Position numbers and translations under genes: made by a program. A stretch of 36,213 nt of DNA from a virus, in IMG/VR virus record IMGVR_UViG_3300042935_000737, positions 1 through 36,213 of that record; one strand, 5' to 3'. This document shows positions 21,033 to 25,814 of this stretch, one piece after another. A model generated the notes under the pieces. The model was not told where the DNA came from, ran no database searches, and saw nothing but the letters and a program-made list of their open reading frames with translations. Every line of letters begins with the position of its first letter. Positions within the stretch are counted from its first letter, which is position 1.

Positions 21033-22364
21033 TTATTGATAATCTTCAAATTTCATTGTTTCAGGTAAAAATCTTAATGCTATATTTTTTGTTGATCCGT
21101 GGCGATTCTTCTCAACCTTACAAACCACTAAATCGCTAGGAGAATACTCTTTACCACCAATCTCAATAGCTTCTGTCATCTCGTAGTAATGTGGTCGCAT
21201 AAGCATAATAACTGCATCAGCATCTTGTTCGATAGAACCTGATTCTCTTAAATCAGATAACTGAGGCATCTTATCTCCTCTTTCTTCTACCCTACGAGAT
21301 AATTGAGATAGGGCGATAATAGGTACTTCCAACTCTTTAGCGAGGGCTTTTAGGCTTCTACTGATGTAGCTGACCTCTTGTTCCCTGTTTTGGTTTGATT
21401 TGCCTGTACCACTCATAAGTTGGAGGTAGTCGATAAAGATTACCTTGATTCCATACTTTTGCTTTAAGATGGTGGCTTTTGCTCGGAGTTGGGTTACACT
21501 TATACCGCCCATATCTTCAATATGTATGGGGGAAGCTAATAATAAGTCATCTGTCTTTAGTAAAACCTTTCTTTGTGTAGCATCCAAAGTATTCATTCTA
21601 AGCCATTTTAAGGGCAGCCCAGAGCCGATTGACTCTAACCTTTCAACTAACTGTTCGGAGCTCATTTCAAGGCTAAAAACGGCCACAGGAACGCTATCTA
21701 AACAAGCTAGTTGGTAGATACTTGAAAGCATAAAGGCGGTTTTACCCATCCCTGGTCTTGCAGCTACGATTACTAGGTCAGGCTTAACCCATCCGCATAG
21801 GGTATTGTTTAGCTCATTAAAACCTGTGTTATAGCCCAATAAACCTCCTTTTTGAGCCATATCACGAGAATAATTGATTGATAAAATAATATCTTCCATC
21901 ATCTTCTCGTAGATATTCCCAAACTCTTGTAGCTGAATGAGTTTTTTGGATACCTCAGACATAAAGTCTATGGTATCTTCCTCGCCATTGGTCGCCCCAA
22001 CCACAAGCTCTCCACCCAGCACCACCAACATCCTACGCTTATAGAGTTCTATTATTAACTCTATATGGGCTTCTAGGTGAGCAGTTGATACCACATCTTT
22101 AGTTAACTCAGAAAGGTAGTAGGCATTTACTTGATCCGTTTGTTTAGCATCTACGATGCGTTGGTAGAGTGTAGTAATATCTATTGGGATATTCTTATCG
22201 TACATCTCTCTAATCGTTCTGAATACAAGCTTATGCTTATAGTCGTAGAATATATCCTCTTTTAAGTAGTTGATTACTAATGACAAAGATTTTTTGTCGA
22301 TTAATAACGAGCCTAGGATATTGCGTTCAATCTCTGTGTTTTTAGGCAGGTTGATTACTTGCAT
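21033..22364 (-). CDS. dnaB: Replicative DNA helicase DnaB
   Basis: At 443 residues the protein has both DnaB parts: an N-terminal helical domain (1-~110, with E-R-N-I-L-G-S-L-L) and a RecA-like motor. Walker A is R-P-G-M-G-K-T (203-209), Walker B is V-I-F-I-D-Y-L-Q-L (308-316, Asp312), and S-L-E-M-S-S precedes them in the usual place (231-236). It unwinds the fork in the 5'-3' direction as a hexamer. It lies directly after the small gene 22364-22585 and downstream of the replication protein gene at 23205. Confidence 0.95.
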   Translation of the reverse strand: MQVINLPKNTEIERNILGSLLIDKKSLSLVINYLKEDIFYDYKHKLVFRTIREMYDKNIPIDITTLYQRIVDAKQTDQVNAYYLSELTKDVVSTAHLEAHIELIIELYKRRMLVVLGGELVVGATNGEEDTIDFMSEVSKKLIQLQEFGNIYEKMMEDIILSINYSRDMAQKGGLLGYNTGFNELNNTLCGWVKPDLVIVAARPGMGKTAFMLSSIYQLACLDSVPVAVFSLEMSSEQLVERLESIGSGLPLKWLRMNTLDATQRKVLLKTDDLLLASPIHIEDMGGISVTQLRAKATILKQKYGIKVIFIDYLQLMSGTGKSNQNREQEVSYISRSLKALAKELEVPIIALSQLSRRVEERGDKMPQLSDLRESGSIEQDADAVIMLMRPHYYEMTEAIEIGGKEYSPSDLVVCKVEKNRHGSTKNIALRFLPETMKFEDYQ

Positions 22365-22585
22365 TATATTTTGTTTATTTCGTTTTTAACTTCTTGCCAA
22401 AATTCCATAGCCTCTCTTTCTGCAATTACATAATCATAAGGATGTGCTGGTTCTAAAGGACTTGAATTAATTATTTCCTCTACTGCTATTAATGCACATT
22501 GTTTAGCTTTAGATTCATAATCACATTCTCTGCAACTAAATGCCATAGCTTCTACTAATTCCCTTGCCTTTTCTTTTGGTGTCAT
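22364..22585 (-). CDS. Small Cys-containing protein, unknown
   Basis: A 73-residue protein: an N-terminal helix M-T-P-K-E-K-A-R-E-L-V, three Cys (C-R-E-C ... C) in the middle and an acidic C-terminal helix. It shares one base with the dnaB ATG and overlaps the preceding stop by four bases (ATGA). Similar small genes are common beside phage replication genes, but no function is known to me. Confidence 0.65.
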   Translation of the reverse strand: MTPKEKARELVEAMAFSCRECDYESKAKQCALIAVEEIINSSPLEPAHPYDYVIAEREAMEFWQEVKNEINKI

Positions 22586-23205
22586 TTTAGTTTTATTTTG
22601 GTGTTTTGTGTTGTTACTGGTTCAAAGTTTTTAGAGTTTTTTGTCCATGTAGCTATTCTTCTACTTATGTCAAAGAATTTTTGGTCTTGGAATCTCATCT
22701 TTCCTTTTGCATCTTCTTCTGTCCAGTAAGATAAAAAAGAATCATATTGGTTACCTAGTTTATCCTTTAGTTCATCTAACCTAGAAACAAAAGATTGCTT
22801 GTCGTTATATATCTTATTAGGTATTATATCTATATTATTAATAACTATATTATTATGTGCCAGTTTTTCGGCTGAGGGGTTAGCCGATTTTCTGGCTGAG
22901 GTGGGTTTGTTTTCTGACCTAGGTATCTCTATGTTAATTACAAGGGATCTAAAGTCAAAATCACCATTTTCTTTTAGTTTAATAATCCTACCAAGTATTT
23001 TCATATCCTCAAGCTTCTTAAGGTGGTCTTTAATCGTAGATTCACCACAATCTAAACACTCACCTAAATACCTGTTTGATGCGAAGCAATAGCCTCTTTC
23101 GTTACTTAAATTAGATATTAAAGCTATTAACAACTTTTGCTTATCTGTAAGCACCTTGCTTAATAAAACCTGTGCAGGAAGGACTGCAAACCAATTATGA
23201 TTCAT
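22582..23205 (-). CDS. Winged-helix replication protein (helicase-loader or initiator candidate)
   Basis: This 207-residue protein starts with a winged-helix domain (about 15-90): L-L-S-K-V-L-T-D-K-Q-K-L-L, then Y-L-G-E-C-L-D-C-G-E-S-T-I-K-D-H-L-K-K-L as the recognition helix and wing. The C-terminal half has K-L-G-N-Q-Y-D-S-F-L-S-Y-W and a basic tail, as in phage DnaD- or O-like proteins that bind the origin and load DnaB. It is immediately upstream of dnaB. A terminator-like hairpin sits right before its ATG. Confidence 0.7.
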   Translation of the reverse strand: MNHNWFAVLPAQVLLSKVLTDKQKLLIALISNLSNERGYCFASNRYLGECLDCGESTIKDHLKKLEDMKILGRIIKLKENGDFDFRSLVINIEIPRSENKPTSARKSANPSAEKLAHNNIVINNIDIIPNKIYNDKQSFVSRLDELKDKLGNQYDSFLSYWTEEDAKGKMRFQDQKFFDISRRIATWTKNSKNFEPVTTQNTKIKLK

Positions 23206-23211
23206 AAAAAT

Positions 23212-23265
23212 AAAAAAAGGGCTTCAGACTTACAGGAAATGCGACTTCCTGTTCATCTTCCGCCC
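23212..23265 (-). promoter_or_regulatory. Terminator-like attenuator in the leader of the replication gene
   Basis: On the minus strand GGGC (from 23265), an inner 4-bp pairing AGAT/GTCT and a perfect 7-bp stem ACAGGAA/TTCCTGT surround the loop GTCGCAT, closed by GCCC and followed by seven T. The T tract ends just before ATG 23205. It could stop readthrough from the upstream gene 23310-23525 or act as an attenuator for the replication gene. Confidence 0.65.
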
Positions 23266-23279
23266 AATAAACTCTTTTT

Positions 23280-23298
23280 TGTAATGTCGCATATTACA
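23280..23298 (-). promoter_or_regulatory. 5' leader hairpin with loop complementary to the attenuator
   Basis: On the minus strand TGTAAT pairs with ATTACA around the loop ATGCGAC. That loop is the exact reverse complement of the attenuator loop GTCGCAT at 23239-23245. The hairpin would sit at the very 5' end of a transcript starting from the box at 23302-23309. Confidence 0.65.
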
Positions 23299-23301
23299 GA
23301 G

Positions 23302-23309
23302 CAAATATA
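23302..23309 (-). promoter_or_regulatory. Leftward TAnnTTTG box before the replication operon
   Basis: The minus strand reads TATATTTG, ending six bases upstream of about 23296, the expected start of transcription. It sits right after the stop of gene 23310-23525, and its leader contains both hairpins. It probably drives 23205 through dnaB. Confidence 0.6.
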
Positions 23310-25282: not shown

Positions 25283-25618
25283 TTATAAAATATTGATAAG
25301 GTTTTCTATGTCAGTACTAACTAACTCATCTACATCGGATTGATCCTGTATAGATGCTATGCCGTGCATAACAGTACTATGGTCACGGCCAAACAAATCG
25401 CCAATAGATTTAAGCTTTAACTTAACTCTAGTTCTTATTAGATACATAGACATATGTCTAGCCATTACAAGTGTTCTGTATCTTTTTTTACCTCTAATCT
25501 CTTCATTAGTGATGTTGTAATAGGTACAGACCTTGGCTATAATCTCATTAGCAACTGCCTCTCTTTGTCTTGGGTTGAGCTTTGTCTTACGAATAGAAGG
25601 TATAGCCCAGTAGTCCAT
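25283..25618 (-). CDS. Stand-alone DnaA domain IV protein
   Basis: This protein of about 111 residues is essentially only the DNA-binding domain of DnaA. It has I-I-A-K-V-C-T-Y-Y-N-I-T, then R-G-K-K-R-Y-R-T-L-V-M-A-R-H and the DnaA signature G-D-L-F-G-R-D-H-S-T-V-M-H (74-85). There is no AAA+ domain and no domain I. It may bind phage DnaA boxes or displace host DnaA from its sites. Starts at 25636 or 25660 are also possible; 25618 follows the preceding stop by one base. Confidence 0.85.
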   Translation of the reverse strand: MDYWAIPSIRKTKLNPRQREAVANEIIAKVCTYYNITNEEIRGKKRYRTLVMARHMSMYLIRTRVKLKLKSIGDLFGRDHSTVMHGIASIQDQSDVDELVSTDIENLINIL

Positions 25619-25619
25619 T

Positions 25620-25814
25620 TTATTCTTGATGTTCATAGATAGAGTTTTTAAGTTGTTCAATCTTTTTTGCGTAGAAGGCTTCTACAACTTCTATCATCTC
25701 CTCATCAGCCGCAGCTAAACGAGTTTTTATTAGGTAGGGTGAATAACCTGTAACCTCACAAATCTTTTTTATATCGCCATATTTTAATAGGGCACGATAA
25801 TCTCTAATCAGCAT
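25620..25814 (-). CDS. Small HTH-like protein
   Basis: A 64-residue protein: Y-G-D-I-K-K-I-C-E-V-T-G-Y-S-P-Y-L-I-K-T-R-L is a helix-turn-helix-like segment, followed by an acidic helix and coiled coil. It could be a transcriptional regulator of the leftward arm. It overlaps the upstream gene by 11 bases and nearly abuts the DnaA-domain start. Confidence 0.55.
   Translation of the reverse strand: MLIRDYRALLKYGDIKKICEVTGYSPYLIKTRLAAADEEMIEVVEAFYAKKIEQLKNSIYEHQE

Follow-up and report, generated by a model that had tools for sequence, protein, structure and literature searches.

Covarying kissing loops before phage replication genes point to a putative RNA-based control of replication with recognition codes of its own

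Comparison of related phages reveals a structured RNA module that is linked to a promoter and to replication genes and whose two loops form a helix under selection. Judging from the joint changes of its two hairpin loops, the kissing interaction between them is almost certainly real. The leader most likely controls readthrough into the replication genes, with loop specificity between RNA copies acting as dosage feedback or exclusion, and the evidence points to a previously undescribed RNA control of replication that would carry its own recognition codes. Our literature search found no paper on the element, with most subscription journals outside that search.

The leader and its gene block in the window

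The window, by which we mean the whole stretch of DNA that was analysed (36,213 nucleotides), is IMG/VR record IMGVR_UViG_3300042935_000737, positions 1 to 36,213, and its leader is read leftward, on the minus strand. The features are as follows.

23302..23309, minus strand: -7 promoter box TATATTTG of the Bacteroidota type (TAnnTTTG), from a motif scan with the consensus of PMC7366714
23280..23298, minus strand: hairpin B, loop 23286-23292 (RNA AUGCGAC), from sequence, folding and stem covariation
23266..23279, minus strand: AU-rich linker of 14 nt joining hairpins B and A; loop spacing is constant in the IMG/VR leaders
23219..23265, minus strand: hairpin A, loop 23239-23245 (RNA GUCGCAU); fold z-score -4.5 against shuffles, and its stems covary
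23212..23218, minus strand: seven-T tail (seven A on the plus strand), from sequence; a T-rich tail occurs in all IMG/VR leaders
22582..23205, minus strand: replication initiation protein (HTH_36), 207 aa; phrog_428 E=4.5e-14, Pfam HTH_36 E=1.5e-10
22364..22585, minus strand: small ORF in the initiator's gene block, from a match to phrog_21441
21033..22364, minus strand: DnaB-like replicative helicase in the initiator's gene block; phrog_19 E=1e-105, DnaB_C E=5.2e-86

Leftward, the order is TATATTTG, hairpin B, linker, hairpin A, seven U and start codon, with the initiator ATG at 23205 (minus strand) a few bases past the T tail. The RNA module is about 87 nt long in the window, and we call its longer hairpin A and its 5' hairpin B. 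The stem of hairpin B is formed by 23280-23285 and 23293-23298, around a loop that reads GTCGCAT on the plus strand (23286-23292). Hairpin A has an apical stem (23232-23238/23246-23252), an outer stem GGGC/GCCC (23219-23222/23262-23265) and two purine-rich internal loops, and its own loop reads ATGCGAC on the plus strand (23239-23245). A sequence-only reading of this stretch had described the two loops as exact reverse complements, placed hairpin B at the 5' end of the leftward RNA and called hairpin A terminator-like, with a T tail just ahead of the initiator. On inspection of the window sequence the complementarity and all coordinates proved right, hairpin B is located where the 5' end of the RNA is predicted, and hairpin A with its T tail does look like an intrinsic terminator. 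The whole leader, taken as 86 nt, has a folding z-score of -4.1 against shuffles. Minimum free energy folding without pseudoknots gives hairpin A a loop of 3 nt, via two weak pairs added inside the 7-nt loop; the 7-nt form is, judging by the comparison of leaders, the form kept by evolution.

In Bacteroidota promoters TAnnTTTG serves as the -7 element; this was confirmed for Flavobacterium johnsoniae, in which no -33 motif was seen (PMC7366714). With the box centred at -7, transcription would start at hairpin B or within a few bases of it (+1 near 23298), which would put the 5' end of the RNA at or near that hairpin. The leader box is the sole TAnnTTTG on the minus strand of the window between 20335 and 27596. 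On the plus strand the motif is absent between 21461 and 24324, and sigma-70-like sites that might serve an opposite-strand antisense RNA are no more frequent than in shuffles. Such an antisense RNA was considered and rejected, there being no promoter box near the leader on the opposite strand. Within the same leftward gene block the window also encodes a small protein with a DnaA C-terminal DNA-binding domain (25283-25660, minus strand; Bac_DnaA_C, E=1.3e-24); Cellulophaga phi10:1 likewise has such a protein, annotated as DnaA.

Joint change of the two loops in relatives

The window by itself offers modest, only suggestive evidence for the loop match. On its minus strand, 2 of 3,669 nearby pairs of hairpins with 7-nt loops are fully complementary, where about 0.2 would be expected by chance, and the second of these pairs is AT-only. 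A search with the initiator protein gave 52 IMG/VR loci, and the leader is present in all 49 that have a usable upstream region; in these 49 leaders, found by the initiator protein alone, the loops are without exception exact reverse complements, despite their differing sequences. Leaders of the GAGT-N7-ACTC form have complementary loops in 162 of 162 cases, and the only non-complementary strings retrieved with this pattern are unrelated sequence. Wider protein and DNA-pattern scans of IMG/VR yielded about 155 distinct leaders, most of them found independently of loop complementarity, through a protein match or through DNA patterns that put no constraint on the loop. These hold eight loop-B sequences (ATGCGAC, GTACGAG, GTCGGAT, GTTGCAG, ATTGCAG, GAGCGAG, GTACCAG and GGACGAG), in loop pairs such as ATGCGAC/GTCGCAT, GTACGAG/CTCGTAC and GTCGGAT/ATCCGAC, and none of the 155 breaks the pairing. 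The relatives' leaders show covarying stems with both loops kept complementary, and a leader in which one loop had changed alone was sought among them and not found. The loops change jointly in every relative, which strongly supports the 7-bp kissing interaction that the sequence-only reading had proposed.

Covariation was counted on 17 distinct hairpin pairs placed in register, the two hairpins being concatenated for counting only. In these the kissing cells are 100% standard pairs, all of them Watson-Crick, with no G-U in any type. Two-sided changes occur at six of the seven kissing pairs, the seventh being always A-U, and the observed covariation score was reached by 0 of 500 shuffles and by no slid register. 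The stem of hairpin B and the apical and outer stems of hairpin A covary as well. Complementarity is confined to the seven loop bases, ending at the loop borders, in 122 of the 155 leaders. The stem TTGGTA/TACCAG is found with the loops CTGCAAC and CTCGTCC and, conversely, one loop is found with different stems; it is therefore the loop pair itself that varies, jointly.

The borders of the module are regular throughout the IMG/VR set. TAnnTTTG is present in 155 of 155 leaders and ends 8-9 nt before loop B in 154 of them, the distance from loop to loop is 44-48 nt in all 155, and 7-13 nt separate the beginning of the T run from the start codon. All of these leaders have a GC stem and a T-rich tail, of varying quality, the T tract being imperfect in several types; among the cultured phages described below, Cellulophaga phi10:1 and FCV-3 of F. 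columnare have a weak one.

Cultured phages were reached with a covariance model built without the kissing pairs, and then by BLAST from the phi10:1 region and from Flavobacterium phage morran9-1. With an E value of 0.12, the model matched Cellulophaga phage phi10:1 weakly, in the gap that precedes the genes leading to the TOPRIM primase/helicase. Loop B begins GTACGAC there and loop A contains GTCGTAC, an exact match that the model had no means of favouring. BLAST gave further leaders ahead of replication genes, and the loop pairs are as follows.

phi19:1: same code as phi10:1
Flavobacterium phage morran9-1: GTGAGAAG/CTTCTCAC
lillamy/filifjonk/hemulen: GTGAGACG/CGTCTCAC
mumin/snusmum: GTGGAACG/CGTTCCAC
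F. columnare FCV-3: GTAGAGAG/CTCTCTAC
phi18:3: CTTCTGAC/GTCAGAAG
Olleya Harreka_1: GTGGTGG/CCACCAC
Cellulophaga Nekkels_1: GTCTAAC/GTTAGAC, the 5' partner not clearly in a hairpin

The cultured phages add eight complementary pairs, found without using the loops, and bring the total to at least 16 distinct pairs. Morran and lillamy are one compensated pair apart, with leaders that are otherwise similar. The cultured set has weak sequence similarity to the window's group, and its leaders may be related to those of that group by common descent or analogous to them by parallel origin. Neither the covariance model nor a strict scan detected a leader in Flavobacterium 11b, Fpv5, Cellulophaga phi12:1 or phi17:1; not all phages of Bacteroidota therefore have the device.

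A chance match of two loops within one phage could draw on the many hairpins that can be compared and on the other, AT-only 7-base match on the window's minus strand. Against it stands complementarity that is kept across the eight codes of the relatives and also across the eight further ones of the cultured phages; the comparison of relatives rules it out, and we attach a negligible probability to it.

Other scans around the leader were also made. Leader DNA searched by BLAST against INPHARED and PLSDB gave only short irrelevant matches, the hairpin pattern TTTG-GTAAT-N7-ATTAC gave no new leader-like loop pairs among the matches listed, and the linker pattern retrieved one known locus and four coding matches. 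Immediately ahead of the first gene that follows the leader, a stretch around GGTAATCTTAAAACC is conserved across genera (L400:10339-10384, morran, lillamy and other Flavobacterium phages). Runs of short TTTTTG-rich repeats (e.g. GAGTTTTTGCATTGGGTTTTTGGCAGG) are present in the DNA of related phages, in L146 near 4532, in L174 near 7313, and in L185 and L259.

Exchange of codes, second leaders and downstream genes

Over 500 bases upstream and 600 downstream of the leader, the window and locus L006 share 90-100% identity in each 50-base bin, in most of them 98%, whereas the leader itself is only 58-67% identical, with the code GTACGAG in L006 and ATGCGAC in the window. A different loop type despite a shared initiator (at least 95%) and a shared upstream flank (at least 80%) was found in 34 locus pairs. 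On this comparison, the leader is exchanged as a cassette between near-identical phages. Predicted pairing energies are -7 to -11 kcal/mol for cognate 7-mers and weaker than -6 for non-cognate ones, with the exception of the related codes GTTGCAG and ATTGCAG, which are one compensated pair apart. One sample (3300020042) contains contigs of three loop types (L016, L090 and L115/L270).

Most phages have one leader. Two are present in L021 and L214, and the shorter contig L026 also holds both codes; in the two-leader phages the initiator is preceded by the code GTCGGAT and an HNH gene by GTACCAG, the two codes being orthogonal. Such phages are few, and all carry the same two-code combination. The gene behind the GTACCAG leader is NUMOD4/HNH homing-endonuclease-like in L232 (contig 3300043775_000392), L026 and L214, and this leader is located away from the initiator leader. 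Beyond chance, no further hairpins with a loop of the phage's own type were found in the leader loci. An avoidance of own-type hairpins, suggested by a first count, was dropped when the signal disappeared after removal of duplicates.

The genes that flank the leaders vary both upstream and downstream. Among the products of the genes that come first after the leader are HTH_36 initiators, Lin1244_N proteins and DnaD/DnaA-like replisome organisers, so that the downstream initiators span several unrelated replication-initiation families; a few phages have a methyltransferase or HNH gene in this place. DNA methyltransferase-like genes lie directly 3' of the leader in L078, L108 and L244, and in L078 and L108 the initiator comes after them, as if they had been inserted behind the promoter.

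Possible modes of action, life style and known systems

Taken as a whole, the sequence-only reading is partly supported. That the loop interaction chooses between termination and readthrough, as it proposed, is something that we also infer, and the diversified loop code and the cassette exchange suggest recognition between RNA molecules, beyond a purely internal switch. Our best explanation, on which as a whole we are evenly divided, is an attenuating leader with kissing of B and A and trans action of terminated leaders. Hairpin A would terminate or block part of the transcripts, and the module would thereby set the amount of initiator (and DnaB). Kissing between B and A, formed once loop A emerges, would compete with the closing of A and favour readthrough. 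Other genome copies would supply short, terminated leaders bearing the same two loops, and these could pair in trans with hairpin B or hairpin A of a leader still being transcribed and make its termination more likely. The more genome copies in the cell, the less initiator would then be made, and a phage that co-infects with an identical loop code would be restrained.

If selection acted on trans recognition, this would account for the large number of codes and for their exchange as cassettes. We infer the trans part from code diversification, exchange and second leaders with a different code, which is an evolutionary argument, and it should be read with some caution. The second code of the two-leader phages precedes an HNH gene and not the initiator, and cis-only pairing with compensatory drift also yields covarying loops. 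Pairing in cis may be kinetically favoured over pairing in trans, and kissing could act the other way round, favouring termination where we have it opposed. A more specific proposal, which we put forward tentatively, is self-recognition by virulent phages: terminated leader RNA would gauge the number of same-code genomes per cell and lower initiator synthesis, and the loop code, diversifying under frequency-dependent selection, would serve as a tag of kinship or incompatibility, with no need of a separate regulator gene.

The main rival, somewhat doubtful in our estimation, is a cis-only riboregulator whose kissing fold would set or switch termination transcript by transcript, with no trans RNA; its cue would be transcription speed, temperature, a protein or a ligand, and loop diversity would be neutral compensatory drift spread by recombination. 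Both loops always lie on one transcript at a fixed spacing, no other target hairpin is found in the phage, and GTTGCAG differs from ATTGCAG by one compensated pair, as expected from drift. Such an element fits poorly with the large code jumps in near-identical backgrounds with constant flanks, with perfect Watson-Crick pairing from which G-U is absent in every type, and with a second leader that uses another code in one phage. Hairpin A and the kissing fold might also act after transcription, on translation initiation or mRNA stability of the initiator, as the short distance of 7-13 nt from the start of the T run to the start codon and the weak T tails of some relatives would allow. We consider this improbable: the T tail after the GC stem is kept in most leaders while the neighbouring sequence changes, and an element of the full-length mRNA would not need it.

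The same module could be seen as a DNA-level element, either a replication origin or a protein-binding inverted repeat, its repeats being read by a protein or forming hairpins in single-stranded DNA. It adjoins replication genes, and in DNA the two loops are a 7-bp inverted repeat. However, the stems around each loop covary and keep the hairpins, the module has a single orientation relative to the promoter box, T tail and start codon that anchor it, and at other places in the genome it is found before HNH genes as well, all of which makes this possibility very remote. Scarcely credible is a leader-peptide attenuator, in which a short ORF across the hairpins would couple translation to termination. 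Although an ATG near loop B opens 9-37 codons in some types, this start codon is missing in many leaders (it is present in 10 of 28 GTCGGAT leaders), and frames, stops and peptides differ between types; the candidate was rejected because start codons and frames are not conserved.

Portal and terminase proteins are closest (29-36%) to those of Cellulophaga, Flavobacterium and Bacteroides phages. Phage_integrase had no match in 17 long contigs, which are possibly incomplete, while all 14 control genomes were positive, and no HTH_3 repressor scored above the cut-off in the long contigs. No genuine leader of the GAGT/ACTC form occurs in 84,980 bacterial and archaeal genomes, where the pattern gave two unrelated matches only, and a host search by protein against bacterial and archaeal genome contigs gave no match. 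Phages of the mumin group are reported to be virulent (PMC7077304). Given no integrase, no leader in bacterial genomes and a virulent mumin group, classical prophage immunity is therefore unlikely, and control during lytic growth fits better.

By analogy, the working mode would be most like that of P4 CI RNA and of plasmid rep attenuators. CI RNA derives from the leader of the P4 replication operon, pairs with seqA/seqC there and drives premature termination (PMC4825925). As in P4, complementary segments lie in the untranslated leader of the replication operon, here in all leaders. P4, however, is temperate, and its CI is processed into a separate RNA with target sequences on either side, whereas the leader described here has two hairpin loops only, a T-tail hairpin and at least 16 codes, and its carriers have no detected integrase or are reported virulent, with sequences unrelated to P4. 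In plasmid attenuators of the pT181/pIP501 type, RNA-RNA pairing decides termination in the rep leader and so controls copy number (PMC8383071; PMC3753616). The likeness lies in a terminator-like hairpin A between promoter and initiator start, with termination itself predicted only; the difference is that their antisense RNA comes from the opposite strand, while both partners are here on one RNA. Recognition in the plasmid systems begins with a loop-loop contact of two RNA molecules; in the phage leaders the loops pair, judging by covariation, and may do so within one RNA or between two. The leader lacks defining features of both P4 CI and the plasmid attenuators, with no sign of lysogeny, no Rfam family and no opposite-strand antisense RNA. 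Engineered orthogonal attenuators required changes in both stem and loop to become orthogonal (PMC3753616), and the seven loop bases may thus not be the whole code.

Rfam 15 gave no match at the gathering score in the window or in the other leader types, and none at E<=0.5 in the cultured-phage leaders. The best weak match over the window leader was rli59, with 16.8 bits against 100, and identity with a known RNA family was rejected for want of an Rfam match. C4 of the temperate phages P1 and P7 is an antisense RNA that shares one transcript with its target; it targets antirepressor mRNA, and its specificity differs between related phages. Both pairing partners are on one transcript here too, but the leaders have no Rfam match. 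In the purine riboswitch, L2-L3 joins two hairpins of one RNA by 7-nt loops, a pairing conserved in support of the ligand pocket; the loop code here diversifies, in contrast, and a conserved ligand-pocket sequence was not seen.

If the proposed control is correct, a very small RNA device whose specificity resides in seven or eight bases would control replication in a large group of phages of Bacteroidota, cultured phages of Flavobacterium, Cellulophaga and Olleya among them, and would offer a natural collection of many loop codes for RNA regulation. The idea of copy-number and immunity RNAs would then extend from plasmids and temperate phages to apparently virulent phages. Existing isolates would allow phage-phage exclusion in lytic co-infection to be tested directly, and some of them share a host: phages with three codes infect Flavobacterium sp. 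LMO9.
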